Shown one piece after another: positions 44,605 to 57,809 of a stretch of 64,000 nucleotides of DNA. Source of the DNA: Formosa sp. Hel1_31_208. GTDB lineage: Bacteria > Bacteroidota > Bacteroidia > Flavobacteriales > Flavobacteriaceae. The number at the start of each line of letters is the position of its first letter. The stretch's first letter is position 1. Position numbers and translations under genes: made by a program. Where the stretch lies: NCBI RefSeq assembly GCF_900104785.1, contig NZ_LT629733.1:2450501-2514500 (forward strand), given 5' to 3'. Below the pieces are notes generated by a model, which made no database searches, was not told where the DNA came from, and worked only from the letters and a program-made list of their open reading frames with translations.

Positions 44605-45330
44605 TCAACCTAACCAACCGTCACGATCCATACTGCGATATTGAATGGCTTCTGAAATATGTGACCCATTAATCACTGGAGAAGCCTCTAAGTCGGCAAT
44701 TGTTCTCGATACTTTTAAAATTCGGTCATAAGCTCTTGCTGAGAGACTTAAGCGCTCCATAGCCGTTTTTAGCAATTGCATAGACCCATCATCTAATTTG
44801 CAATACTTCCGAATTTGTTTGGTATTCATTTGTGCATTGTAGTGCACACTTTTAGAATCATAAAAACGCTTTGTCTGCAATTCTCTTGCTGCTGTGACCC
44901 GTTTTCTTATCGCAACAGAGGACTCGCATTTACGTTCATCAGATAGTTTATCAAAAGGTACTGGTGTGACTTCAATATGAATATCGATACGATCTAATAA
45001 GGGACCAGAAATCTTGCTCAAATACCGTTGCATTTCCGCGGGACTAGATGTTACAGGTGCATTAGGATCATTAAAATAACCACTAGGACTCGGATTCATA
45101 CTCGCCACCAACATAAACGACGATGGATAGGTCACTGTAAATTTTGCTCTGGCAATAGTGACTTCACGATCTTCTAGAGGTTGTCGCATCACTTCTAAGA
45201 CTTCCCGTTTAAATTCTGGTAATTCATCTAAAAACAAAACACCATTGTGTGATAGCGAAATTTCGCCAGGCTGCGGGTAACTTCCGCCTCCAACTAAGGC
45301 GACATTTGTAATTGTGTAAGTTGTGTACAT
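44605..45330 (-). pseudogene. comM: comM (yifB) C-terminal part, cut off by the mobile element
   Basis: This 241-aa fragment is the AAA+ ATPase end of a ComM/YifB protein. From VALVGGGSYPQPGEISLSHN onward it carries Walker B (NGVLFLDELPEF), LVASMNPSPSGY, and the Mg-chelatase C-terminal domain ending SRTIADLEAS...AIQYRS. The Walker A half lies 11.6 kb away at 56943-57809. The first eight codons, MYTTYTIT, are supplied by the element end. ComM is a branch-migration helicase aiding natural transformation; this split should abolish it unless the element excises. Confidence 0.95.
45302..45330. other. attL (element left end)
   Basis: The core ACATT is followed by an element arm rich in GTGT (TGTAATTGTGTAAGTTGTGT). 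The right end carries the approximate inverse, ACACCCACAC before the other core, as expected for the two half-sites of a serine-integrase attP. Confidence 0.75.
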
Positions 45331-45344
45331 TTATAATAATTATA

Positions 45345-45352
45345 TATATTTG
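45345..45352 (+). promoter_or_regulatory. Promoter of the serine recombinase
   Basis: TATATTTG matches the TAnnTTTG -7 box. A TTG at 45321-45323, 21 nt upstream, could be the -33 element and lies in the attL arm. The recombinase start is 18 nt downstream. Confidence 0.5.
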
Positions 45353-45370
45353 CTTAAATATTAAAGGACT

Positions 45371-47140
45371 ATGTTAGCAATATATACGAGATTATCTAGA
45401 GAAGATGAAGATAGTAATTCTATTAAGAACCAACTTAATGAAGGTATATTATTTGCAAAGGCTAAAGGGTTTACAGAATATCAAATCTATAATGAAGGCG
45501 AAGGTGTTAGCGGTGGATTACAAATAGATGAACGACCAGAACTAAAAAAACTAATTGATGACATAGTCAGCGGTAAGATAACAGCGGTTTGGTTTAGGAA
45601 TCAAAATAGATTAGAACGCAACAGCTTTACATTTCACACTTTTGTGAAGGTTATAAAAACAGCTAAAATAGATGTGTATTTTGGTGATAAGTTGAACGAT
45701 TATAATGATGCTAACACATTTCTTCAAAGTAGCATTATAAGTGCTTTAAATCAATACAATAAGGAACTACAAGGGCAACAAACAAAGAAAGTTTTAAAGC
45801 AAAGAGCGATTGAAGGAAAAGCACATGGTATAATGGCTTATGGCTACACTAAAGACGAACATGGTTATCTAGTAATAGATGAAGAAGAAAGTAAAGTAGT
45901 AAAGCGAATCTATAAGATGTCTTTAGAAGGCATTGGCACTAACAAAATAGCCGAATTACTAAACAAAGATGATATACCAACACGATACAAGAGCAAATAC
46001 AAAGGAACGTATAAGGTCAAGCATAAATTTAACGGTACTAAAAAGGTTAAAGAGAAAAGCAATGTTACTTGGAAAGGTGGTACAATCAGAAATATTTTAC
46101 TGAATACTATCTACTACGGTAAAAGAAACTTTAGCGGCGATCTATACGATGTGCCGAATATTATTTCAGAGGCTTATTGGCAAAAAGTAAATAACAATCT
46201 TAAAAACAATAGAAACAACAGCGGACAATCCGTAAAGCACAACTATTTACTGCGAGGTAAAATAATATGCGGTAAATGTGAATCTAACTATTATGGTAGA
46301 ACTAGAGTAAACAAAAAGGATAATTATTACATGTGTTCTAGTAAACGCTACAAAGATAAAAATTGTGGTAATCGGAGTATCAATATTGATGTGATTGAAG
46401 ATTTTATATGGCAAAGGTTTTTTGCTGATGAAGTCTTAAAAGATAAAATAATTGAACACTTCTCAAATACCAATGCAGAAGAAGATATAAAAGGCATACA
46501 AGCCGATTTAAAGGCACTTGAAAAGGAATTAATAAAGAACAGCGAAAGACAACGTAAAGCTGTTAGTTTGGTCTTAGATGGTGTATTAACTAATGATGCT
46601 GTAAAGTATGAATTAGACAAATTAAAGAAGGAAGCATCAGCCATAAAGATTAATATTGAGAATAGAAAAGAACACATTTCATCTTTAGAAAATATAGAGG
46701 TTATTTCTAGCAATATGATTACAGAATTAGATGAGGTTAAAAAGAAAACATCATTTGACGAAAAGAAGATATTGATTGATAAATACATTGATAAAATTGA
46801 AATTAACACACATCGTATTGATAAGACTAAAGGCTATTTTACTTTGTTAATATATTACAAGCAAATATTAGAAGGTTGTGAAGGCTACTATTTAGACTTT
46901 CCAAGATATGATTATGCAATTGAAATGTATAATGAAATTATAGTACCACTATCTGACGAATACAAAAGCAAATCAAAAGACGAATTAGATATGATTGTGA
47001 TGCAAGTCTATTCACAAATGGGTAGAACAAAAGTAATTACAAGCTATGATGAAGAAACCGATACAGAACAATACTATTGGGAAAGTGAAGAAAAAGGCAT
47101 AACAGAATACTATCGGAAAAATGAAGATGATAAAGATTAA
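45371..47140 (+). CDS. Large serine recombinase (site-specific integrase)
   Basis: A 589-aa serine integrase. The N-terminal resolvase domain has the nucleophile Ser9 in YTRLSREDED, with WFRNQNRLERN in the active-site region. The recombinase domain (GKAHGIMAYGYTKD to LLNKDDIPTRY) is followed by a zinc ribbon (IICGKCESNYYGR ... YYMCSSKRYKDKNCGNR), and a long coiled coil lies at about 370-470. It sits 64 bp from the core at attL and would carry out integration into comM. Excision usually needs a directionality factor, which is not identified here. Confidence 0.95.
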   Translation: MLAIYTRLSREDEDSNSIKNQLNEGILFAKAKGFTEYQIYNEGEGVSGGLQIDERPELKKLIDDIVSGKITAVWFRNQNRLERNSFTFHTFVKVIKTAKIDVYFGDKLNDYNDANTFLQSSIISALNQYNKELQGQQTKKVLKQRAIEGKAHGIMAYGYTKDEHGYLVIDEEESKVVKRIYKMSLEGIGTNKIAELLNKDDIPTRYKSKYKGTYKVKHKFNGTKKVKEKSNVTWKGGTIRNILLNTIYYGKRNFSGDLYDVPNIISEAYWQKVNNNLKNNRNNSGQSVKHNYLLRGKIICGKCESNYYGRTRVNKKDNYYMCSSKRYKDKNCGNRSINIDVIEDFIWQRFFADEVLKDKIIEHFSNTNAEEDIKGIQADLKALEKELIKNSERQRKAVSLVLDGVLTNDAVKYELDKLKKEASAIKINIENRKEHISSLENIEVISSNMITELDEVKKKTSFDEKKILIDKYIDKIEINTHRIDKTKGYFTLLIYYKQILEGCEGYYLDFPRYDYAIEMYNEIIVPLSDEYKSKSKDELDMIVMQVYSQMGRTKVITSYDEETDTEQYYWESEEKGITEYYRKNEDDKD

Positions 47141-47165
47141 GAAATGTTAATGAAAGACGTTTCGT

Positions 47166-47855
47166 TTACCTCTCTCCTCTCATTAGGTCATTATCCCTCT
47201 GAGTATAATAAGCCATTAATTTAGCTTTCCCAGTTTCATTTTTATCTTCAGCAGTTTCCTTTATTGCAACAGTTAGCAATCCCTTCTTAATGTATGAATA
47301 AATACGAGGTCTAGATATAGAATGCATTTCAGCAATCTTAGATATAGATATACCCTTATCTAAATCAGATTGAACAGCAGTAATAAGCGTATAGTTCTTT
47401 TTCATTAAATCACTAGATGCACCACGTTTACGACCTTTATATACACCATTGACTTTAGCAATTTCTCTACCCTCTTGTGTACGTTCATTTATGATACTTC
47501 TTTCATGTTCAGCAATAGCACCAAACATAGATACCATTAATTGACCATAAGCACTCAGCTTACCATCTACCATCAAATTAAGACCTAAGTTCTCAATACG
47601 AATATCTATACCTTTATTAGTAAAGTATTCAATAGTATTCAAGATGTCCTTCAAATTTCTACCAAGTCTTGAAATCTCTTTAACTTCAATAGATGTTATC
47701 TTAGAGTTCTTCATCAATTTACTTGCCTCTGGTCTGTCTTTAAAAAGAACACCACCCGAACACACATCAATATATGCTTTTATGGTTTTATCCTTTTTTA
47801 ACTGTCTGTCAACTTTTTGATTAGGTGTTGAGATTCTAACGTATAAAGCCTTCAT
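47166..47855 (-). CDS. Small serine recombinase (resolvase/invertase type)
   Basis: A 229-aa protein. The catalytic domain begins MKALYVRISTPNQKVDRQL with Ser9 as nucleophile, followed by EISRLGRNLKDILNTIEYF and MFGAIAEHERSIINERTQEG. A C-terminal helix-turn-helix (ISISKIAEMHSISRPRIYSYI) should bind a res or inverted site. It converges on the large integrase gene with a 25-bp gap. It may resolve multimers of the excised element or invert a segment; no paired res sites were recognised. Confidence 0.92.
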   Translation of the reverse strand: MKALYVRISTPNQKVDRQLKKDKTIKAYIDVCSGGVLFKDRPEASKLMKNSKITSIEVKEISRLGRNLKDILNTIEYFTNKGIDIRIENLGLNLMVDGKLSAYGQLMVSMFGAIAEHERSIINERTQEGREIAKVNGVYKGRKRGASSDLMKKNYTLITAVQSDLDKGISISKIAEMHSISRPRIYSYIKKGLLTVAIKETAEDKNETGKAKLMAYYTQRDNDLMRGER

Positions 47856-48024
47856 TTAATGTAATGTTTTAAGTTATTATTCTATTTAATTACAAATATA
47901 CGTATTTAATACAATACAAACAGTCTTTATTGTAAATATTTATGTTGTAATCTATTTCTTTACAGTACAAACAATTATATAATTTTTTTGTTATGTAATC
48001 GAGAATCAAATAATAATAAATATC

Positions 48025-48156
48025 ATGGATAAAACAGAAACAACAATTGCAATTAGATTGACTAACGATGAGAAATCGCAGATACAACGCAAAGCACATG
48101 AAAACTATAAGACGCTAAGTGCCTATTTAAGAGATTTAGCCTTACAACGTGAGTAA
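48025..48156 (+). CDS. Small ribbon-helix-helix protein (MobC/CopG-like)
   Basis: A 43-aa protein: after a short start MDKTETTIAIRLTNDEKSQI it continues as a helix ending LSAYLRDLALQRE. The strand TTIAIRLT plus two helices is the ribbon-helix-helix pattern of relaxosome accessory proteins such as MobC or of CopG repressors. It lies 139 bp upstream of the HUH gene in the same direction, which supports a role in relaxation or control of replication. The size makes the call moderate. Confidence 0.55.
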   Translation: MDKTETTIAIRLTNDEKSQIQRKAHENYKTLSAYLRDLALQRE

Positions 48157-48295
48157 GAAATTAAAAGAATAATTAAAGACATAGTCAAAATAGAGACTAT
48201 AAAATACTGATTTACAATTAAATAAAGCAATTGGTTCAAAATAACCTCTATACGTTAGTTATGTCTAATCGTCAAGCAACAAAACAACTACAACA

Positions 48296-48664
48296 ATGAA
48301 TAAAATAGGATTAGAATACGGTAAATGGTTAGCACCAATGGGATGGGATTATATAGCTACTATCAGAAGGCATTATCCTCTAACAGAAACTAATGCACCA
48401 GTATTAATGCAAAGAGCAGTAAATAAAGCTAAAGTTACAAGACTATTCTATTCTATAGAGCCAGATTATAATGATAAGCATACACACGCACACTTATTGC
48501 TTTCTTGTAATTATAAATTAGATCGAGATTCTATGGCTAAGGCGATGAACATACAGCCACAATCTATAAGTTATTTTGAACCTGTAATAAATCAAGAAGC
48601 AGTTACCAACTACTGTACTAAGTATGTTGGTAGAAGTAATGTATTCTACAATTTAATTTTCTAA
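48296..48664 (+). CDS. Minimal HUH endonuclease (Rep/relaxase-like)
   Basis: A 122-aa protein with the three motifs of a single-Tyr HUH nuclease. Motif 1 is WDYIATIRRHYPL, motif 2 with the His pair is KHTHAHLLLSCNY, and motif 3 with the catalytic Tyr is VTNYCTKYVGR. Only the catalytic fold is present; no helicase or primase domain follows. It could nick the element for rolling-circle replication or mobilisation. Assignment rests on motif spacing and neighbouring genes. Confidence 0.6.
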   Translation: MNKIGLEYGKWLAPMGWDYIATIRRHYPLTETNAPVLMQRAVNKAKVTRLFYSIEPDYNDKHTHAHLLLSCNYKLDRDSMAKAMNIQPQSISYFEPVINQEAVTNYCTKYVGRSNVFYNLIF

Positions 48665-48726
48665 ATATTCGTAATCAAACTAAACCCAAGTATCAAAGTT
48701 CCCTAATAATTTAGGTTATAAATAAT

Positions 48727-49290
48727 ATGCCAAAGCCTTATACATTTCCTATCATCTACGATGAAGTATTGCAGATAAGTATTACTAAGTTAAAAGAATG
48801 GGGTTATCTAAATAGTCAACGCTTTAGATCGAATATTATTACTTGGAGTACAAACGGTGAAAAAACATCTAGTATTTTAATTAAGTTAATTACTAGAGGT
48901 GAACAATCATACATTGAATTAGATTATAAATTTGGAAATGAAGCTAGAAAGTATAAAGTTGGTTTGGTCTCTGTGCCGTCAAACTTAGGTAAGGGTGTTA
49001 TTTGGTATTTTCTATGCCCTCAAACCAATAGAAAGTGTCGTAAACTATACTCTATTAGTGGTTACTTCTTACATAGAGAAGCCTTTGGTGGTTGTATGTA
49101 TGAAAGTCAAACACAAAGTAAGCAATGGAGATACTTTAAGTCTGTTTATGGCACTTTATTTGACTTAGAAAGATGTTATGATAAACTTTATTCGAAACAC
49201 TTTAAAACGCATTACAGGGGCAAACCAACGAAGCGCTATTTAAGGTTATTGCGACAAATAAATAATTTAGAACACCAAAACATATTATAA
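48727..49290 (+). CDS. Hypothetical protein with a zinc-ribbon-like motif
   Basis: A 187-aa protein following the HUH gene by 62 bp in the same direction. The middle contains WYFLCPQTNRKCRKLYSISG and FLHREAFGGCMYESQTQSK, reminiscent of the CPxCGRRxRxLY...YESQ pattern of small proteins found near mobile elements, but here with the second zinc cysteines partly replaced. Function is unknown. A replication or mobilisation accessory role is plausible by position only. Confidence 0.6.
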   Translation: MPKPYTFPIIYDEVLQISITKLKEWGYLNSQRFRSNIITWSTNGEKTSSILIKLITRGEQSYIELDYKFGNEARKYKVGLVSVPSNLGKGVIWYFLCPQTNRKCRKLYSISGYFLHREAFGGCMYESQTQSKQWRYFKSVYGTLFDLERCYDKLYSKHFKTHYRGKPTKRYLRLLRQINNLEHQNIL

Positions 49291-49310
49291 AAAAAGAACT
49301 AAACTTTCAA

Positions 49311-49397
49311 ATGAGAGAAAATAATAAAAATAACGAAAGATTTGAACTGACTATATTGATTATATTTATAATCCTTGAGTTGCTTCAATTATTTTAA
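49311..49397 (+). CDS. Possible 28-aa membrane peptide
   Basis: A short reading frame, MRENNKNNERFE followed by a hydrophobic stretch LTILIIFIILELLQLF. It starts 20 bp after the preceding stop and ends 1 bp before the convergent gene. The charge pattern fits a single-helix membrane peptide, but a chance ORF is equally likely. Confidence 0.25.
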   Translation: MRENNKNNERFELTILIIFIILELLQLF

Positions 49398-49398
49398 T

Positions 49399-49713
49399 CT
49401 AAAGTTGCATTACAGAATATATTGCCATAATTAATCCTAGAACAAACATTATTCCAATAAAAGTAACCCAACCCTTGATTGCGTTAGTATTTTTATTTGT
49501 TAATTTAACTTCATTGATTAATTCAATTGTTAAAAAACTAATCTTGTCTTCTTTAATTAGTGTTAATTTTTTTTGAGCTGAAGCATCATATTTGTCTTTA
49601 ACATTTTGTTTAACACCTTTTGACTCATACATCTTTACTCTACTTTTATAGAGCGCGGTTGTAATTAAGCCTAATTCTTTTTTTTCTTCTAATAATTCTA
49701 AATAATTGCTCAT
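49399..49713 (-). CDS. Small tail-anchored membrane protein, unknown
   Basis: A 104-aa protein with a charged helical N-terminal region (YLELLEEKKELGLITTALYK) and one C-terminal membrane helix (GWVTFIGIMFVLGLIMAIYS). No family is recognised. It lies within the element and has the same strand as the two secreted-protein genes upstream of it. Confidence 0.5.
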   Translation of the reverse strand: MSNYLELLEEKKELGLITTALYKSRVKMYESKGVKQNVKDKYDASAQKKLTLIKEDKISFLTIELINEVKLTNKNTNAIKGWVTFIGIMFVLGLIMAIYSVMQL

Positions 49714-49779
49714 GATTTATAATTTACTATTATGTTTAATTAATCTTTATTAATAATCTTTTACGACAAACTATTATCA

Positions 49780-50136
49780 CTAGTAGCAATTACATGTGTA
49801 ATCTCTTATATATTCATGAAATGACTCACCCCATGAGCCGCCATACATACCATTTGTTTTAAAAGCGCTCCATCGCTGCTGTGATATGCCACAAAAAATA
49901 TATGGGCTACCATTAAAATCGTAAGCATTACTTTTTATATAGGCTACTACAAATCCATTTCCTTCAATTTTATAATATTCAACTTTGACTAACATTGTTG
50001 AGCCTAAGCAGGTTACACTATCATTTGAATAATACTCTGTAACAGTTTCAAAGAGTTCTTGACAACTAATAGATTGTGCTTTTACTTGAAAAGAAAAAAA
50101 AGTGCTAAATAATAACAGAAATAAGAATTTTTTCAT
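49780..50136 (-). CDS. Secreted KTSC-like domain protein
   Basis: A 118-aa protein with signal peptide MKKFLFLLLFSTFFSFQVKAQ. The mature part ends with VVAYIKSNAYDFNGSPYIFC and SAFKTNGMYGGSWGESFHEY, which resembles the KTSC domain fold. Two cysteines at the end (YTCNCY) could form disulfides. Its upstream region shares a 52-bp repeat with that of the next gene, so both may respond to one regulator. Function unknown. Confidence 0.55.
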   Translation of the reverse strand: MKKFLFLLLFSTFFSFQVKAQSISCQELFETVTEYYSNDSVTCLGSTMLVKVEYYKIEGNGFVVAYIKSNAYDFNGSPYIFCGISQQRWSAFKTNGMYGGSWGESFHEYIRDYTCNCY

Positions 50137-50155
50137 GATAAATAGGTTTTCATTA

Positions 50156-50207
50156 ATGCAACAATATTAGAAATAATTCAAAGAGAAGTGTTACGGGATT
50201 CCCTAGT
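50156..50207 (-). repeat. 52-bp upstream repeat, copy 1 (candidate operator/promoter)
   Basis: This block is 44/52 identical without gaps to 51262-51313. Both end with a dyad around GGGAT (ACGGGATTCCCT here). It begins 20 bp upstream of the KTSC-like gene start. Confidence 0.6.
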
Positions 50208-50260
50208 CAATAACAGTATTGATTATTAAAATTCTAGGAACAAGTTTCGACTTAATTTTT

Positions 50261-51193
50261 TTATTCTAAACATTTCAACTTATCTAAAAAGAACTCTTTA
50301 TATTCAATATCTTCAATATCCTTATAATAATCAGTACCTGTCAATCTTATCGATTGAATAGGTGACTTTTTTAATCTTTGAATATCTTTAGAAGTCAATC
50401 TTCCAAAAAGCGTAAAATCTGCACAGTCAACGTCACCAATATGATAAAAAGTTAGCATGTCATTATTTTCTAGATAAACTTTGACTGATGATTTACTTGA
50501 TTCATAACTACTCGCGCAACCCAAATCTTCATCAATACTAAAGTAGACATACTTTATACCTGCAAACATATATAACTGTATTGCTAAATAATAATCAGAA
50601 GCAGAATCCGATTTCAAACCATAATATTCTGTCAGAACTACTTTAACCTTTTCATATTTATCAATCTCATTACGAACATAATGGCAATTATTTCTTAATT
50701 CAAGTTTAGCAATACTGTCAAGTTCTGCTATTTTTTTTAGTGCTTTGGCTTGCCTTTCTATTTTTACTAATTTAACGCTATCGGCGATTCTTTTTTTGTT
50801 TAATTTTTTGATTCGATCTTTTTCTTCTTTTTCCTTCTCCTCAATAATTTTGAGCCTTTCTCTTTCTCTTTCTTCTTTTTCTAAAAGCAAGTTATAATTC
50901 TTAAGAGCCTCTTTCATCTCATCATTAATTTCTATTGTTAACCCAAGAATCCAACCTTCACAATTCTTTGATTTTCCATACCACCAATCACCATTACCTA
51001 CTTTAGTTATTATAATGGATTTCTTTTTTTTGTATTTACATATTGAACGTCCGTTATTTGAGGGAAGAGTTTGAAAATACCCATCTCTAATAGCCTTAGT
51101 CTCTATATTTAAATTTTGACTAAATGTCTGAAATGAAAAAAAACATAGCATAAGTAAGAGAATAGTAATTCTAGGTAAATTTGATTCAGTCAT
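50261..51193 (-). CDS. Secreted SH3-like / coiled-coil protein, unknown
   Basis: A 310-aa protein with an N-terminal signal segment (LLLMLCFFSFQTFSQ). Residues about 30-85 look like a bacterial SH3 domain (YFQTLPSNNGRSICKY ... WWYGKSKNCEGWILG). A strongly charged coiled coil follows (about 95-165), and then a C-terminal domain of about 140 aa without a recognised family. The SH3-like part suggests contact with cell wall or peptides. Upstream is copy 2 of a 52-bp repeat. Confidence 0.55.
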   Translation of the reverse strand: MTESNLPRITILLLMLCFFSFQTFSQNLNIETKAIRDGYFQTLPSNNGRSICKYKKKKSIIITKVGNGDWWYGKSKNCEGWILGLTIEINDEMKEALKNYNLLLEKEERERERLKIIEEKEKEEKDRIKKLNKKRIADSVKLVKIERQAKALKKIAELDSIAKLELRNNCHYVRNEIDKYEKVKVVLTEYYGLKSDSASDYYLAIQLYMFAGIKYVYFSIDEDLGCASSYESSKSSVKVYLENNDMLTFYHIGDVDCADFTLFGRLTSKDIQRLKKSPIQSIRLTGTDYYKDIEDIEYKEFFLDKLKCLE

Positions 51194-51261
51194 AATATGT
51201 AGTTTAATTAAGTAACAAATTTAAATCTATAAGAGTAAGTATTCTATGACAAATATCATTG

Positions 51262-51313
51262 ATGCAAGAATATTAGAAATAAATCAAAGAGAGTTGCTAT
51301 GGGATACCGTAGT
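51262..51313 (-). repeat. 52-bp upstream repeat, copy 2 (candidate operator/promoter)
   Basis: Matches copy 1 at 44 of 52 positions. It contains the near-perfect dyad CTATGGGATACCGTAG at 51297-51312 and begins 69 bp upstream of the SH3-like gene start. Confidence 0.6.
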
Positions 51314-51403
51314 TTATAATATATAACTTACGTTATTACATTTCTATTAGTATGATGTATATTGTTAATCACTTGATTTTTTATACTTTTAAACATATAA
51401 TGT

Positions 51404-51437
51404 GGATATAGTTAATACGTATATCCAATTGTTGGCA
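51404..51437 (+). repeat. Attachment-like site at the 5' end of cassette 1
   Basis: A 7-bp hairpin GGATATA / TATATCC (51404-51410 with 51420-51426) is followed after 4 nt by the core GTTGGCA at 51431-51437. It looks like the right half of an attC-like site, or an attI-like primary site, because no CCAAC partner is found upstream. Confidence 0.5.
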
Positions 51438-51462
51438 GTCATTAAAAACACAAAAATATTAA

Positions 51463-52677
51463 ATGATAATACAGGCACATTTTGAGAATATAAAACAAAT
51501 ACTTACTGAGGAAATTAACGGCTCAAGAAGCTCAATAAAAGTTGCAGTTGCTTGGTTTACGGATTTAGAGTTATTTCAAAATCTAATTGAAAAAGCGTCT
51601 CAAAATATTGAAGTTGACCTACTTATTCTAGATGATGATATAAATAATTCAAGTAATATTGATTTTGAACTGCTCAAAGAACACAATGGAAGAGTATGGA
51701 AAATATCTGAAAGAAACAGAAAATCATTAATGCATAATAAATTTTGTATAATTGACCAAAGTACTATAATTACTGGTTCGTATAACTGGAGTTATAAAGC
51801 ACGGACTAATCATGAAAATATTACTGTTGTAAAAGAAAATCATGACCTAATCAAACAATTTGATAGAGAATTTCAACGCATTGTTAAATACTACTTCCCT
51901 AATGACCAAACTAAAAGACAAAAAGATAAAACGGTAAATAGTAAAGAAGTAGTCTCACACTCAAAATTTTCCGAATCAGTTCTTATCGCAGAACTACAAC
52001 TTCTAAAAATTCAGGTTCTGGGTATTGAAAATGAACTCGCATTTGTGGAAAAATCTATAACTGATTTCACTACTTTATATGATATTAAACTAGGTCCAAT
52101 GTTAATGGAACTTCTTGAACTCAAGAAAAAGGTTATCGAAAATTTAGATGAAAATAAACAAAGTCAAAAAGATGCTGAGGAACAATTTAACAACTTTAAA
52201 GAATCTTATGAAGATTCTAAAAATAGAGGATGGAAAGATTTGACATCAGAACAATCAAAAGAACTAAAAAAGGTATTTCGTCAAGCTACAAAGTTATGTC
52301 ATCCTGATCTGGTTAATGAATCTGAAAAAAGGAATGCTGAATCAATTTTTAATGAATTAAAAAATCTAAGCGAATTAAATGATTTACAAGGTGTTAAAAA
52401 CCTATATACTCATTTAAAGAAAGGAGTTTTTACTGAAATTAATATTAACTCTGAAAATCATGAAATTCGAAAATTGAAAGCTAACATTAATCGATTAAAA
52501 ATTAAGCGTGAAACATTTGAAAAACGCATATTGCAACTAAAAAAATCAGAAACTTATATTACTGTAATTAACATTACAAGTAAAGATGAATATTTTCATT
52601 ACATGCAGCTCAAAATAAGAAATCAAATACAAGATATTAGGGAAAATTATGAAAAAAAACTTGCCACAAAAAAGTAA
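51463..52677 (+). CDS. PLD-family nuclease-like protein with coiled coil and J-domain
   Basis: A 404-aa protein. Residues 1-145 form one phospholipase-D-like unit with the HKD signature His91-Lys93-Asp98 (LMHNKFCIIDQSTIITGSYN). A coiled coil spans about 175-255. A J-domain-like helix pair follows with His280-Pro281-Asp282 in RQATKLCHPDLV, and a second coiled coil ends the protein. One HKD motif means it must dimerise to be active. The J-like part could recruit Hsp70 or serve as a binding platform. It heads a three-gene overlapping operon with two TPR proteins; a defence nuclease role is inferred. Confidence 0.8.
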   Translation: MIIQAHFENIKQILTEEINGSRSSIKVAVAWFTDLELFQNLIEKASQNIEVDLLILDDDINNSSNIDFELLKEHNGRVWKISERNRKSLMHNKFCIIDQSTIITGSYNWSYKARTNHENITVVKENHDLIKQFDREFQRIVKYYFPNDQTKRQKDKTVNSKEVVSHSKFSESVLIAELQLLKIQVLGIENELAFVEKSITDFTTLYDIKLGPMLMELLELKKKVIENLDENKQSQKDAEEQFNNFKESYEDSKNRGWKDLTSEQSKELKKVFRQATKLCHPDLVNESEKRNAESIFNELKNLSELNDLQGVKNLYTHLKKGVFTEININSENHEIRKLKANINRLKIKRETFEKRILQLKKSETYITVINITSKDEYFHYMQLKIRNQIQDIRENYEKKLATKK

Positions 52678-53251
52678 TAGAAATTTAAGTGGTTTTGAGC
52701 AACGATTGACTATTGGTTCTGAGTTGCTTAATCAAGAAGAATCAAATAATGATGAAGTATATTTTCATTTTATGTGTGGTAAAAATGCGCTATTTGAAAA
52801 TCGCGTTTATGCAGCCATAGAATACTTTAACAAAGTAATTACCTATTTTGAAAACATATCTGCTGATAAAAGGTTCATCATGAAACTTGGACGCAAGGTT
52901 CCTTATGATGAATATGTTAATTCCTTATTATTAAGGGGTAATGCAAATTATTCTCTGCAAAACGAAAATCTTGCAATAAAAGATTATTCAAAATGTATAG
53001 TCGCAGATAATTCAAATATTGGTGCTTATAGAAATCGAGCAATATGCTATATGAACACAAATTTAATCGATTACGCCATTAAAGATTTTTCTGTTATAGT
53101 AAAGTTAAAAGAATATTGTCCTGAAATTCATCGTTATTTAGGATACTGCTATGAAAAAATAAAAGATAAAAATAATTCGAAATTACATTTTTCAATAGCT
53201 GCAGATCAAGGAGATAAAGAATCAATAAAAAAATTAATAGATGATAAATAA
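52649..53251 (+). CDS. TPR-repeat protein (first)
   Basis: A 200-aa protein of tetratricopeptide-type helices: YFHFMCGKNALFENRVYAAI, SLLLRGNANYSLQNENLAIK, AYRNRAICYMNTNLIDYAIK, and HRYLGYCYEKIKDKNNSKLH. It starts 29 bp inside the PLD gene and ends 11 bp inside the next, so all three are translationally coupled. It probably acts as scaffold or sensor for the PLD/J-domain protein. Confidence 0.8.
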   Translation: MKKNLPQKSNRNLSGFEQRLTIGSELLNQEESNNDEVYFHFMCGKNALFENRVYAAIEYFNKVITYFENISADKRFIMKLGRKVPYDEYVNSLLLRGNANYSLQNENLAIKDYSKCIVADNSNIGAYRNRAICYMNTNLIDYAIKDFSVIVKLKEYCPEIHRYLGYCYEKIKDKNNSKLHFSIAADQGDKESIKKLIDDK

Positions 53252-54341
53252 AAACGCTTTAAATATTTTTGAAAGGGGATTACAAAAATCAATTCAAGGA
53301 GATTATTTTGGTGCAATAGAAGATTTTACTAATGTAATTGAAATCAACCCGAAATATACTTCTGCTTATATAAAAAGAGCACAAGCCAAAATATCTACAG
53401 AAGAGATAAGTCAAATTTTAGATGCCTACTCTGATTATGATATGGCGATTTCCTTAGATGCTAATTGCGCAGAAGCAATAGCAGGAAGAGGAACTTTAAA
53501 AATTTTATTAAATCCAGAAGATGAGGATGGATTAATTGATTTAGAAGCGGCTGCAGAAATTGATACAAATTACTCTTCTTATTTCAATATTGGTATTTCC
53601 AAATTACAATTAGAAGATTATAACGGCGTCATTGAGGCCTTTAGCAAATATATTCAGATTGAAAAACCACAAGATTTTTGGATTGGAGAAGCTCATTATT
53701 TTATTGGATTAGGATTTCACAATTTAAATGAAATGGAAGAAGCAGTAAAAAATTATTCCCTAGCGATTAAAAATAAAGCTCAAGAAAATTATCATTCGGC
53801 TTTTTTTAATCGAGCGATGTGTTTTGAACAGTTAAATCTAATTGATAAAGCTTCATCAGATTATGAAAATTTAATCGAGCTTAAACCTGACTTTATTGAC
53901 GCGTATGTTAACCTGTCAAAGATTTTAGTCTATAAAAATTTAAGAACTGAAGGAATTGTACAACTGAAAAAAGCTCTTAAATATGATGAAAACAACAGCA
54001 ATATTTTAGATGAACTTGCAAAACAATTATTATATATACACGATTTTGATTCTGCCGTAAATTATAATTCAGTTCTTATTAATCTTAATCCAAATAAGTT
54101 TCACTATTACTTGAATAGGGGCTTATGTTATCTTCAATTAAATAAATTTGAAGAAAGTATTAAAGATTACAACAAATCAATCGAGTTGAATGATAACATA
54201 TCTCATGCCTATTATTATCGAGGTTTAGCACATTTACAATTAGGAAATAACCAAGCATGTATTGATTGGAAAATAGCTCTTGAAAAAGGCTTTACTGATG
54301 CAAAACCATATCTAGATAAATACTGTAAATCCAGAGTGTAA
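53241..54341 (+). CDS. TPR-repeat protein (second)
   Basis: A 366-aa protein built of about nine TPR units across its whole length (for example GDYFGAIEDFTNVIEINPKY, EAHYFIGLGFHNLNEMEEAV, YYLNRGLCYLQLNKFEESIK, AYYYRGLAHLQLGNNQACI). No catalytic domain or signal peptide is visible. It is the last gene of cassette 1; the inverse core CCAAC of its attC-like site lies 18 bp past its stop. Confidence 0.85.
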   Translation: MINKNALNIFERGLQKSIQGDYFGAIEDFTNVIEINPKYTSAYIKRAQAKISTEEISQILDAYSDYDMAISLDANCAEAIAGRGTLKILLNPEDEDGLIDLEAAAEIDTNYSSYFNIGISKLQLEDYNGVIEAFSKYIQIEKPQDFWIGEAHYFIGLGFHNLNEMEEAVKNYSLAIKNKAQENYHSAFFNRAMCFEQLNLIDKASSDYENLIELKPDFIDAYVNLSKILVYKNLRTEGIVQLKKALKYDENNSNILDELAKQLLYIHDFDSAVNYNSVLINLNPNKFHYYLNRGLCYLQLNKFEESIKDYNKSIELNDNISHAYYYRGLAHLQLGNNQACIDWKIALEKGFTDAKPYLDKYCKSRV

Positions 54342-54357
54342 ACTCAAAAATAACGCC

Positions 54358-54488
54358 TGCCAACAACGTATATAAAAAATAGCGGTTTTAGTGCTTAATC
54401 GAAAGAAAATGAAAAAATTAAAGGTCTGTTTTAATACGAATAATTAGTGAGTGAAATCCGCTACTTTTCATATACAAGACCGTTGGGT
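54358..54488 (+). repeat. attC-like palindrome between cassettes 1 and 2
   Basis: Left arm: TGCCAAC (54358-54364), AAC, GTATAT (54368-54373), then TAGCGG (54380-54385). Right arm: CCGCTA (54458-54463), ATATAC (54470-54475), AAGACC, GTTGGGT (54482-54488). The paired boxes and unequal spacers (3 and 6 nt) copy the R''-L''...L'-R' plan of integron attC sites. It fills almost the entire intergenic gap. Confidence 0.7.
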
Positions 54489-54499
54489 GTAATTAAAAA

Positions 54500-54892
54500 A
54501 TGATTGAAGTAACAGCAGCTATAATAGAAGAAGGTGATAAGTTCTTGATTGCACGCAGAGCAAAAGGGAAACACCTAGCTGGTTATTGGGAATTTCCTGG
54601 CGGTAAGATTGAAGCGGGCGAGACAGCAGAGGCCTGTTTATCTAGAGAGCTTAATGAGGAATTTCAGATAAATGTTTCTGTTAATAATTTCGTGGGTGAA
54701 TCAGTATATGAATACCCGAATAAAAAAATAATCTTGAAGGCATTCACATGCAGAATAATCAGCGGAGAAATTCAGCTTAATGATCACGATAAAATCGAAT
54801 GGATTACAATTGATGAAATTAAGCAATATGACTTAGCTCCCGCTGACATACCATTAATCCGATTATATGATAAAGCAAGAAACAATAGATAG
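54500..54892 (+). CDS. Nudix hydrolase (MutT-like)
   Basis: A 130-aa Nudix protein. The Nudix box runs from Gly35 to Ile57: G-x5-E41-x7-R49-E50-L51-x-E53-E54, with the usual Gly near the end replaced by Gln56. WEFPGGKIEAGET is typical of 8-oxo-dGTP, CTP or modified-dNTP pyrophosphohydrolases. It overlaps the MazG-like gene by 26 bp. Pairing with MazG and a modified-DNA-type nuclease suggests that it clears altered nucleotides rather than acting as plain MutT. Confidence 0.88.
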   Translation: MIEVTAAIIEEGDKFLIARRAKGKHLAGYWEFPGGKIEAGETAEACLSRELNEEFQINVSVNNFVGESVYEYPNKKIILKAFTCRIISGEIQLNDHDKIEWITIDEIKQYDLAPADIPLIRLYDKARNNR

Positions 54893-55211
54893 GATTTTAA
54901 AATTCAGAAATGATCGTGATTGGGGTCAATTTCACACCATTAAAGATCTTTGTCTTGGTTTAAACATTGAAGTATCTGAATTACAAGAAATATTTCTTTG
55001 GAAAGATGATAAAGAGTTAAAGGAAACTATCAATAATAAGAAAGAATCAATTGGGGATGAGCTCGCTGATATCTTCATTTTTCTAGCATATTTAAGCAAT
55101 GACTTAAATATTGACTTAAATGAAGCGATTAATAGAAAAATTGATGAAAATGGAAATAAATACCCTATTACTGAATCAAGAGGCAGCAATAAAAAATACA
55201 ACGAACTATGA
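54867..55211 (+). CDS. MazG-like nucleotide pyrophosphohydrolase
   Basis: A 114-aa all-alpha NTP pyrophosphatase. Metal-binding acids are in IEVSELQEIF (Glu35, Glu38) and DELADIFIFLAYL (Glu65, Asp68). It resembles the RS21-C6/dCTPase-type short MazG proteins that hydrolyse dNTPs to dNMPs. It overlaps the Nudix gene by 26 bp and the nuclease gene by 4 bp (ATGA). Two dNTP hydrolases in one operon is unusual. Confidence 0.88.
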   Translation: MIKQETIDRILKFRNDRDWGQFHTIKDLCLGLNIEVSELQEIFLWKDDKELKETINNKKESIGDELADIFIFLAYLSNDLNIDLNEAINRKIDENGNKYPITESRGSNKKYNEL

Positions 55212-56374
55212 TTAGAGAAAACCTAGCGAGTTTTTTTAATAACTGGCAAATTGACAAAGCCAGAGCCACAGAAGTTTTAAGTGAGAATAAGAAATATAAT
55301 TCTGATCTAAAATCTGGCAAGATACCAGGCAAGACCCATCCAGCAGATAAAAAAACGTACTCTCTTTATGATCTAAATAGTGCTTTTATAATAAGCAAAG
55401 AGCTTCCTACTCTACTTCATACAAAAGGAGGTCTCCCAAAAAGCAAATACAAAATACAAGGTTCTATCGGGCAAGGGAATCCTGCTGAAATACCATGGAT
55501 ATGTGTCTTTGATATAGATATTACTAAATCTGCACAAGATGGCTTTTATATAGTTTACTTATTCGCGTCAGATATGTCAGGAGTTTACCTAAGTCTAAAT
55601 CAGGGATGGACACAATATGAAAGAGAATATGGTACAAAAGAAGGACGCATTGAGATTAAAAAGAATGCTACGGTCTCTAAAAAATTACTAAAGAGTGATC
55701 AAGGTTTTTCATATTCGCCAATTGATTTAAAAGCCACTAAATCCCTTGGTAAAGGATATGAGTTAGGTAACATTTGCAGTGTATACTATGACGCGAACGC
55801 CATTCCCTCTGAAGAAGACCTAATAAATGATCTTCGGAATCTTATTGGTGTTTATAGAGAACTTAAAGGACGTGTAGGATCTGATATCATAGACATTAAA
55901 GGTCAACTAGATGAAGATTCTTTCCAAATTGAAATTCAAAAAGGAAAAAGAAAAGAACTTCAATCTGGAGCAATTCAGAAAAAAGAAAAGAAACAAGGTT
56001 CCTCTTCTACTTCTTGGGCTAGAGATTCCAATATGGCATTTACTGCACTGGATAATGCTAATTTCCAATGTGAGAATGATCCAACTCATAAAACATTTAT
56101 ATCTGCTAGGACAGGTAAACAATTCGTTGAAGCACATCATTTAATACCAATGGAATATCAGGGGGATTTTGCTGTAAGTATTGACGTGCCTGAAAATATA
56201 ATTAGCCTGTGTCCTAATTGCCACAGAGCTTTTCATAATTCAGAACCATCAATCCAAGAAGGTTTGATAGCTAAATTCTTCTCTCTACGTTCATCCAGTT
56301 TGGAAGAAAGAGGTATTTATATCAGTTTAGATAAATTATTAGAATATTATAAAACTACACCCAACAATGTATAA
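55208..56374 (+). CDS. McrB-N (DUF3578) plus HNH endonuclease
   Basis: A 388-aa two-domain protein. Residues about 1-190 match the McrB N-terminal DNA-binding domain (IPWICVFDIDITKSAQDGFY, then YLFASDMSGVYLSLNQGW). In McrB this domain reads methylated or hydroxymethylated cytosine. Residues about 270-360 form an HNH nuclease with His310-His311 (VEAHHLIPM), zinc cysteines Cys335/Cys338 in SLCPNCHRAFHN and the active His near 343. A modified-DNA restriction enzyme is the best reading. The stop codon lies inside the left arm of the next palindrome. Confidence 0.88.
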   Translation: MIRENLASFFNNWQIDKARATEVLSENKKYNSDLKSGKIPGKTHPADKKTYSLYDLNSAFIISKELPTLLHTKGGLPKSKYKIQGSIGQGNPAEIPWICVFDIDITKSAQDGFYIVYLFASDMSGVYLSLNQGWTQYEREYGTKEGRIEIKKNATVSKKLLKSDQGFSYSPIDLKATKSLGKGYELGNICSVYYDANAIPSEEDLINDLRNLIGVYRELKGRVGSDIIDIKGQLDEDSFQIEIQKGKRKELQSGAIQKKEKKQGSSSTSWARDSNMAFTALDNANFQCENDPTHKTFISARTGKQFVEAHHLIPMEYQGDFAVSIDVPENIISLCPNCHRAFHNSEPSIQEGLIAKFFSLRSSSLEERGIYISLDKLLEYYKTTPNNV

Positions 56375-56410
56375 ATTGCATTAAAACGCATTTTATACTC
56401 ACCGTTGGCA
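56359..56410 (+). repeat. attC-like palindrome between cassettes 2 and 3
   Basis: ACCCAAC (56359-56365), AAT, GTATAAATTGC (56369-56379) pairs with GCATTTTATAC (56388-56398), TCACC, GTTGGCA (56404-56410). The inner arms agree at 10 of 11 positions. The outer cores agree only in the central CCAAC/GTTGG, because the right core belongs to the next cassette. Confidence 0.75.
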
Positions 56411-56434
56411 AACATTTAAGAAAACCGAAAACCT

Positions 56435-56872
56435 ATGGCATTAATCAATTGTAAGGAATGTAAACAAGAAATAAGCAGTAATGCGGATAAATGTCCTTAT
56501 TGCGGAAATAAAATGAAAAAGGGCGGATATGGTTGTGGAACTATGATTATTATTGGAATTGTAATTTGGATAGCGATACAAATAATCAGTGGGAATTCTG
56601 ACAGTGGAGGAATTATTACGGATGAACAGACTTACTCACAAAGTTGGAGGTCACCACAGGGAACTGAATTTACTGAAATCGGCAGAATCATAGTTACAAA
56701 CGGAATTAAGGTATGCGGAGAATATTACGTGAAAGAAATTGAATTGAACGAATACGTAATTGCGTGTAGTTCTGACGGAACAACTTGGGACTATTTTGTT
56801 GTTTATACAAGTCTGGAGAAAATTTATCGAGCGAATGACGAAATGGAATCTAAATTGAATCCGCCAAGATAG
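56435..56872 (+). CDS. Zinc-ribbon membrane protein, unknown
   Basis: A 145-aa protein. An N-terminal zinc ribbon (NCKECKQEISSNADKCPYCG, Cys-x2-Cys ... Cys-x2-Cys) is followed by a membrane helix (TMIIIGIVIWIAIQII) and a soluble C-terminal domain of about 80 aa (IIVTNGIKVCGEYYVKEIEL). It is the only gene of cassette 3. No function can be assigned. Confidence 0.65.
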   Translation: MALINCKECKQEISSNADKCPYCGNKMKKGGYGCGTMIIIGIVIWIAIQIISGNSDSGGIITDEQTYSQSWRSPQGTEFTEIGRIIVTNGIKVCGEYYVKEIELNEYVIACSSDGTTWDYFVVYTSLEKIYRANDEMESKLNPPR

Positions 56873-56893
56873 AATTGAAAATAAAACACGATT

Positions 56894-56963
56894 TGCCAAC
56901 ACCGTGTATAATTAATTGCTTGTTCTCGCCTACTTCTGAAAATTACACCCACACATTATACAC
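56894..56963 (+). repeat. Terminal attC-like site, right core missing
   Basis: TGCCAAC (56894-56900), ACC, GTGTATAAT (56904-56912) pairs with ATTATACAC (56955-56963). The expected GTTGG core after it is absent; instead, TATA leads straight into the element's ACATT core. The IME end has thus been cut into or built upon this site. Confidence 0.55.
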
Positions 56964-56972
56964 TATAACATT
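56930..56972. other. attR (element right end)
   Basis: The core ACATT at 56968-56972 is preceded by TTACACCCACAC, an approximate inverse of the GTGT-rich arm at attL, and followed on the comM side by ACTTATGGTATGGTG. The half-sites fit serine-integrase attP arms. Confidence 0.7.
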
Positions 56973-57809
56973 ACTTATGGTATGGTGCGGACTTCGAAAT
57001 GGCCGTTGTGACATCAAGCCAGAATGTGCCTTCACTCGCCCTACAACCGAATGAATTTTAGTCGTTTCTAAAGCTTCATGCAAGGTCATTGGTGGCAAAA
57101 TACTAGGCAAACGTTTTGCAAGCATTGTTTTTCCTGCACCTGGTGGACCAATTAAAATGATGTTATGACCACCTGCCGCTGCTATTTCCATGCAGCGCTT
57201 GATACTTTCCTGACCTTTAACATCACTAAAATCAAATTCAGGGAAATTGAGACTTTTATTAAACTCTTCTCGAGTATTGATAATTGTTTGCTCTAAAGGT
57301 TCGTCTTTATTAAAATAATTGATAACCTGAGTGATATTATCGACACCAAATACCTCTAAACCATCTACAATAGCCGCCTCTTTAGCGTTTGACTTCGGAA
57401 GAATAAAGCCTTTATACCCCTCTTCTTTAGCCTTGATAGCAATAGGAAGTGCGCCTTTGATAGGTTGCAAATTTCCGTCGAGTGATAATTCGCCCATAAT
57501 AAGATATTGATCGATGTCTTCAGCCTTAATCTGCTTAGAAGCCACAAGAATGCCAATAGCTAAAGTAAGATCATAAGCCGAACCCTCTTTACGTAAATCG
57601 GCAGGAGACATATTGATAATAATCTTCTTTCCTGGAATTTTATAACCATTGTTTTGAAGTGCAGCAGCAATGCGAAAATTACTTTCTTTAATTGCATTAT
57701 CTGGAAGACCAACCAAATGATACCCAATACCAGAGTCGACATTAACCTCAACGGTTATCGTTGTCGCTTCAACCCCAAAAACAGCACTTCCAAAAACTTT
57801 CTTAAGCAT
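56943..57809 (-). pseudogene. comM: comM (yifB) N-terminal part, cut off by the mobile element
   Basis: This 288-aa fragment has the ChlI-like N-terminal domain (VEVNVDSGIGYHLVGLPDNA, INMSPADLRKEGSAYDLTLA) and AAA+ Walker A (ILIGPPGAGKTMLAKRLPS). The comM frame continues to HHTISN, then the element end adds VIVYNVWV and a stop. The Walker B and C-terminal part is at 44605-45330. The junction residue order and codon phase show that this is insertion, not decay. Confidence 0.95.

Follow-up and report, generated by a model that had tools for sequence, protein, structure and literature searches.

The window analysed here, 64,000 nucleotides of the Formosa sp. Hel1_31_208 contig NZ_LT629733.1 (positions 2,450,501 to 2,514,500), contains an integrative and mobilizable element (IME) that encodes serine recombinases and splits comM (yifB) in two. 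The IME spans about 45331-56968, and at its right end lie three gene modules in one direction, separated by palindromes that resemble the attC sites of integrons (Table 1). The genes within each multi-gene module overlap and so leave no room for a hidden site inside. The sequence comparisons presented below suggest that these modules are very probably cassettes of a Bacteroidota integron-like system, whose apparent integrase lacks the insert of the integron integrase IntI and has a HARP/XPB-like N-terminal domain.

Probable cassettes and attC-like sites at the end of the comM element

Sites were scored with a covariance model, R1, built with its alignment A1 from 40 of 41 sites retained from related loci, none of them from this genome. 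The loci were fetched with the recombinase of a palindrome array near the genome's best IntI-like match; they are the best 80 of 547 relatives of that array-side recombinase. Their record titles are all Bacteroidota, and we take them to be mostly Flavobacteriaceae. A search of the window with R1 recovered two full palindromes with predicted hairpins, J1 at 104.5 bits (E 4e-23) and J2 at 51 bits (E 5e-10). A third site, J3, scored 27 bits (E 3e-4 in the window, 0.016 genome-wide) and lacks the GTT box. A first-pass annotation of the window had described the modules as parted by imperfect palindromes and had proposed a check with an attC covariance model. Run with R1, this check finds J1, J2 and half of J3; the description holds for the first two junctions and the third is a half site. 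In the case of J3, comparison with the homologous site of genome G799 showed that the left attC arm is kept to 56943 with no similarity beyond, and that G799 has the right arm. Most simply, J3 would be the left half only of a site. The sequence after 56943 is probably the end of the IME, and its 9-bp match to the left arm of J3 is probably fortuitous.

The same annotation had claimed that the 5' end of each module is complementary to the inverse core at its own 3' end, and this is borne out by 12/16, 13/16 and 10/16 of the first positions in cassettes 1, 2 and 3. The left flank of cassette 1, J0, has no attI-like TATAAC block, so it is perhaps a secondary insertion site.

Clusters of attC sites lacking integron integrases (CALIN) are called from two or more attC sites (PMC9024848). 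In the window, J1 and J2 are complete by R1, and a search for Phage_integrase (PF00589) gave no match, in agreement with the earlier statement that the window holds no IntI-type integrase. Scored with R1, the window set is a CALIN-like outlier cluster within a serine-recombinase IME in comM. A search of the window against Rfam at the gathering score gave no match.

The first-pass annotation had also suggested looking for the modules beside other neighbours. The cassette 3 protein has one near homologue (86% identity), in another genus (G799, locus L153), which lies within a four-site array with different neighbours. The two DNA sequences are 84% identical over 523 bp. The homology begins 17 bp inside cassette 3; in G799 it follows another gene with no site between, and the 5' boundary is therefore not common to both. 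Homologues lacking the palindromes, which had been named as a possible refutation, were seen among remote relatives: in loci of about 3.4 kb, 6 of 10 places with a PLD homologue and both remote matches of cassette 3 have no site nearby. For the HNH protein of cassette 2, a search of 394 other class genomes gave one remote relative, whose 3.4 kb locus is without a site.

With respect to the host element, a search of 298 further genomes of the family gave relatives of the large IME recombinase (43-56% identity, E<=1e-100) in 4. The six loci around these relatives contain no R1 site, and no empty IME was found.

Table 1. Positions of the cassette cluster, its host element and the other arrays; coordinates are those of the window unless marked as genome coordinates
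Feature	Coordinates	Strand	Remarks
Large serine recombinase of IME	45371..47140	+	
Small serine resolvase in IME	47166..47855	-	
comM (yifB) pieces split by IME	open reading frame (ORF) 44605-45330 and about 56968-57809	both -	
J0, left flank of cassette 1	51397..51430	+	GTATATCCAATT followed by GTT; no attI-like TATAAC consensus
Cassette 1	51431..54364	+	2,934 bp, GTT to own inverse core; opens GTTGGCAG at 51431, closes CTGCCAAC at 54364
PLD-like nuclease gene, cassette 1	51463-52677	+	
TPR protein genes, cassette 1	52649-53251 and 53241-54341	+	ORFs overlap; no site between
J1, attC-like site	54361..54485	+	125 nt; R''-L''...L'-R'; R' already part of cassette 2
Cassette 2	54482..56365	+	1,884 bp; opens GTTGGGTGTA at 54482, closes TACACCCAAC at 56365
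Cassette 2 genes	NUDIX 54500-54892; MazG-like 54867-55211; MrcB_N-HNH 55208-56374	+	overlapping ORFs
J2, attC-like site	56362..56407	+	46 nt
Cassette 3	56404..56900	+	497 bp; zinc-ribbon protein gene 56435-56872; opens GTTGGCAAA at 56404, closes TTTGCCAAC at 56900
J3	56897..56943	+	left half (R''-L'' arm) of attC; right half missing (presumed truncation)
Probable right end of IME beside comM	56944..56972	+	9-bp complement to J3 left arm
Array A	genome 2,247,430-2,294,952	+	after recombinase starting 2,245,384 (+)
Array B	genome 1,828,750-1,843,969	-	after recombinase 1,844,926-1,846,068 (-)
Two site clusters	genome 1.348-1.356 and 1.088-1.094 Mb		no tyrosine recombinase nearby; cargo similar

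A site family tied to a recombinase and to cassette ends

At least 50 R1 sites were found in this genome at E<=0.1, three of them in the window (genome-wide counts of sites, and of the recombinase N-terminal domain below, are lower bounds). The plain pattern CCAAC-N0-8-TATA was useless for a genome-wide search, giving 281 matches as compared to 316 for its reversed control. Arrays A and B both begin just downstream of a tyrosine recombinase, here called HARP-type, which by the defining feature is not an IntI, and no tyrosine recombinase lies beside the window cassettes. The first-pass annotation had left a choice between an array of the CALIN kind and the use of such sites by some other recombinase, and both turn out to be right together.

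In the 80 related loci, 269 R1 sites were counted at E<=0.01, including the 40 training sites of A1. All but four (265) lie downstream of the recombinase and on its strand; the remaining 4 are upstream, 3 on the plus and 1 on the minus strand. The sequence covered was 347 kb downstream as compared to 724 kb upstream. Every locus with more than 1,340 bp downstream has a site (47/47), as do 9/33 of the shorter ones. Contig ends within 700 nt of the integrase gene were found downstream in 25/80 loci and upstream in 0/80 (loci L053-L132), a crowding expected of repeat-rich arrays and one which suggests that arrays are often lost from draft genomes.

The ends of the units were compared using 259 of the 265 downstream sites (6 were cut by contig ends) and 39 sites of this genome. 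Among 243 inter-site intervals (median 702 bp), 183 have a perfect own-end match of the five bases after GTTN. The same match occurs in 1.2% of comparisons between ends that do not belong together and across a junction in 7/298, which is background. The sum of own-end matches was 1,086, whereas the maximum in 5,000 permutations was 450. A position-wise comparison was made with the 224 intervals that have exact GTT and AAC. Own and non-own ends are alike at positions -8 to -1, GTT is fixed, and at +3 to +8 the own-end match is 91-97% as compared to 29-58% between cassettes. Position +10 is a further conserved mismatch: the 5' end has A in 222/224 units, and the 3' end has C in 182. The own-specific complementarity begins exactly at GTT, which therefore marks the start of the mobile unit, as it does in integrons.

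Cassettes common to different genomes have the same boundary. One cassette of 885 bp occurs both in an uncultured Lutibacter and in Formosa sp. L2A11 (99.3% identity), with homology from GTT on and unrelated upstream flanks; the L2A11 copy breaks inside the inverse core and has no attC. Winogradskyella marincola likewise has cassette sequence in common with a UBA6772 genome (89%), and Subsaximicrobium with Tenacibaculum (81%). These observations bear on the possibility that the palindromes are dispersed repeats, REP-like (repetitive extragenic palindromes) or terminators, which gathered between the genes of a variable region without site-specific recombination. The sites are intergenic, AT-rich hairpins and are often alike, as such repeats would be. 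They are not randomly dispersed, however: they keep one orientation, are tied to a recombinase, show own-end complementarity with a sharp onset at GTT and no more than background matching across a junction, and delimit common cassettes whose homology runs from GTT on. Dispersed repeats, which the first-pass annotation had named as a refuting alternative, were rejected on orientation, recombinase link and own-end complementarity, and we regard this explanation as extremely improbable.

The family consensus is AAAAAC-N6-CAAC-N3-GTNTATA, a variable middle, and CATANAC-N6-GTTG. In the R boxes only AAC and GTT are general; the boxes CCAAC and GTTGG of the first-pass annotation were worded too narrowly. 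IntI-type R boxes have the consensus RYYYAAC / GTTRRRY, and the family sites do not follow it, an example being GTTGGCA in the window. The GTTRRRY form is given in PMC9892861. Like the attC sites of IntI integrons, the family sites are imperfect palindromes with the order R''-L''-L'-R' and an unpaired central spacer (features from PMC2727003). Unlike them, they have R boxes cut to GTT/AAC, spacers mostly of 3 and 5-6 nt, and A.C mismatches in place of extra-helical bases.

Pairing in A1 is consistent with a conserved hairpin. Standard pairs make up 95.5% of 706 pair cells, a value that leans high because paired L boxes were required in choosing sites; 110 cells differ from the commonest pair on both sides and 1 on one side. 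Control structures slid by 1-3 columns were 25-39% paired. An RNA element was rejected, as wobble pairs fill 1 of the 706 cells. In IntI systems, the bottom strand is picked by extra-helical bases on one arm of attC (PMC2727003). At that position, two columns of the family alignment are conserved A.C mismatches instead (39/39 and 31/39 rows with letters on both sides), which are T.G when read on the bottom strand. In a random 200 sites, of which 198 were usable, the predicted DNA hairpin of the bottom strand was more stable than that of the top strand in 180 and less stable in 17, and predicted folding thus favours the bottom strand, as in IntI integrons.

The recombinase and its N-terminal domain

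The recombinase of array A is 395 aa long and that of array B, with a TTG start, 380 aa. Their predicted domain order is a HARP/XPB-like N-terminal domain (N-domain), a SAM-like domain and a catalytic domain of the Xer/IntI type without the IntI insert. Six residues, R, K, H, R, H and Y, are invariant in 28 aligned members, and we take them to be the catalytic residues. Alignment A2 left out L097 (in-frame stop) and L119; structure-based runs used 41 and 36 of the 80 loci.

Names from Pfam and NCBIfam alone would make the protein a XerA or integron integrase and hide the N-domain. NCBIfam model NF040815 (site-specific tyrosine recombinase/integron integrase) is matched at 222 bits against a cut-off of 220. 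The IntI model TIGR02249 is matched at 216.7 and 216.3 bits (L045 and L065, the latter from Winogradskyella marincola), below its cut-off of 265 and in two stretches; in the 216.7-bit match, model positions 179-240 are unmatched. Alignment to IntI4 (2a3v) likewise falls into two pieces, with 66 aa of IntI4 facing 23 aa of the query. The IntI-specific additional domain, named as defining for IntI (PMC9668308), is thus absent from the recombinase. The best PDB sequence match is archaeal XerA 5hxy (E 2e-41). XerA and NF040815 recombinases are similar to the HARP-type enzyme in this respect and unlike it in that the match covers residues 100-361 only, with the N-domain outside; we know of no array function for XerA.

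In a small midpoint-rooted tree of 28 rows, 4 of them IntI, whose bootstrap had not settled, IntI (100/100) stands beside a single group of the HARP-type enzymes (90/77), and both together split from Xer (96/89). The sampling of IntI in this tree is thin, namely 3 of 120 listed proteins and IntI4.

The N-domain has a mean column identity of 34-37% and a predicted fold with a pLDDT (predicted local distance difference test) of 86.6. The top PDB matches in a fold search were XPB and the HARP domain of SMARCAL1; the E-values and Z were modest, and the HARP/XPB assignment is supported, not proven. The sequence match to HARP is below the Pfam cut-off. One of the XPB entries matched is, by its title, a complex with forked DNA, and HARP domains act on branched DNA. 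In SMARCAL1 and XPB, these domains are fused to helicases. A PDB sequence search with the N-domain gave two chance-like matches only (E 0.5-0.9), and a fold search with the whole enzyme gave recombinases, integrases and phage regulators of that fold, with no HARP domain among the 50 matches listed.

An attI-like site, TATAAC-N-(A or C) followed by GTT, was found on the 3' side of the recombinase gene, within 300 nt of its end, in 41 of the 54 loci whose first site lies within 4.5 kb. When ends from other loci were used as a control, it was found in 148/2,862 pairs (5.2%). Array A is among the matched loci and array B among the 13 unmatched ones. Host XerC/XerD might in principle move the cassettes, as they do Xer-dependent mobile elements, with the HARP-type protein as an accessory. 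The catalytic domain is of the Xer/IntI type and host Xer systems can be hijacked. However, the HARP-type proteins keep their presumed catalytic residues and adjoin attI and the array. In the stretches of 20 kb and 17 kb around the XerD-like and XerC-like genes, a rough site finder gave one match that looks like chance. We consider the Xer explanation very unlikely.

Relation to IntI integrons, distribution and cargo

Another possibility is that a standard IntI, encoded elsewhere or present in other hosts, acts on these sites as ordinary attC, with the HARP-type recombinase as a bystander. PMC9024848 reports a complete integron in Salinibacter ruber M1. The lytic Polaribacter phage P12002L (NC_028924) holds 11 R1 sites at E<1e-3, 10 on the plus strand and 1 on the minus strand at 14.5 kb. 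According to PMC9892861, the bottom strand of P12002L_attC2 recombines with attI1 under IntI1 at the expected G/TT junction, without top-strand recombinants, and P12002L_attC1 did not recombine; these attC sites may be among the 11. These reports favour IntI. On the other side, the integron-integrase search of this genome that the first-pass annotation had called for found no IntI above the TIGR02249 cut-off and gave the two HARP-type recombinases as the best matches. The downstream, same-strand placement of 265 of the 269 sites and the attI-like site likewise point to the HARP-type enzyme. We judge this explanation unlikely, if less so than the one by Xer, and retain the HARP-type recombinase as the probable integrase. 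At 29.9-40.9 kb of P12002L, several sites lie beside DNA methyltransferase genes and are antisense to the genes there.

Across 158 genomes of the class, at least 101 have a site and at least 78 the N-domain (E<=0.001). With two or more sites required, and with counts again lower bounds, 51 genomes have both, 15 sites only, 27 the N-domain only and 65 neither, an odds ratio of 8.2 for co-occurrence. In a sample of the phylum, at a stricter cut-off (E<=1e-4), at least 54/296 genomes have the N-domain, including 22 that do not belong to the class. The only match of the N-domain in a word-based protein search was itself, a result that does not bear on occurrence outside Bacteroidota. In the case of the Chryseobacterium plasmid NZ_CP041688.1 (L139:8980-18966), a HARP-type recombinase gene is followed by four sites on its strand. 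In this plasmid-borne form of the platform, the genes downstream of the integrase encode RidA, GLPGLI proteins and a metallophosphoesterase.

As compared to IntI integrons (class 1 and the Vibrio superintegrons), the arrays share one-way orientation, the GTT junction, own-end complementarity and attI beside the enzyme. They differ in that the enzyme lacks the IntI insert, has the HARP/XPB-like N-domain and is transcribed towards attI. Transcription towards attI, in the direction of the cassettes, is described for the chromosomal integrons of Treponema (PMC3607928); their enzymes are described there as IntI, and the comparison covers orientation. The window set and the two other clusters of this genome resemble CALIN, with sites of the Bacteroidota family. 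Judged from sequence, the system is integron-like in its apparent working, yet the defining feature tested sets it apart from IntI integrons.

We propose that cassettes would be captured and excised by this recombinase, with the folded bottom strand of attC as its substrate and GTT as the point of action. Its HARP-like domain may help the enzyme to read folded or branched DNA, which in IntI would be the job of the inserted domain. The three-cassette cluster, without an integrase, would have come to lie at the right end of the IME in comM, perhaps because an integrase encoded elsewhere inserted it at a secondary GTT site, and the last attC of the cluster would have been truncated later.

The cargo of the window looks defence-like at the level of annotation. 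The PLD protein of cassette 1 has a weak match to DISARM DrmC models (2e-8), the NUDIX protein of cassette 2 matches the candidate defence family PDC-S07 (1e-50), and the MrcB_N-HNH protein matches a type IV restriction model (5e-8). Cassette 2, with its NUDIX, MazG-like and MrcB_N-HNH genes, is a possible anti-phage module. Elsewhere in this genome, proteins that start with MIKFFRKIRxxLxxENKTGKYxKYAIGEIILVVIGILxALQxNNWNE are frequent among the cassettes (L045, L048, L133, L135). This cassette-borne family occurs in both arrays as well as in the two clusters outside them.

The open literature searched, with bioRxiv and most subscription journals outside the search, gave no account of a HARP-type integrase with cassette arrays, and neither Bacteroid- nor Flavobacteri- occurs in PMC8352920. 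Integrons as such are listed for Bacteroidota (PMC8618304). They are the textbook natural platform for gene capture, and the reading of folded attC has so far been tied to the IntI-specific domain. It seems probable that Bacteroidota have a second, parallel kind of integron, missed by standard detection, in which a HARP-domain recombinase, sister to IntI, reads folded bottom-strand attC with a domain of the repair-helicase type, and which may be the main means of cassette capture in marine flavobacteria. If this is true, the reading of folded attC DNA would not depend on the IntI-specific domain alone, and the system could explain why IntegronFinder gives hardly any complete integrons in Bacteroidetes. 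It would also open large unread pools of cassettes, with defence-like genes such as those of the window among them.

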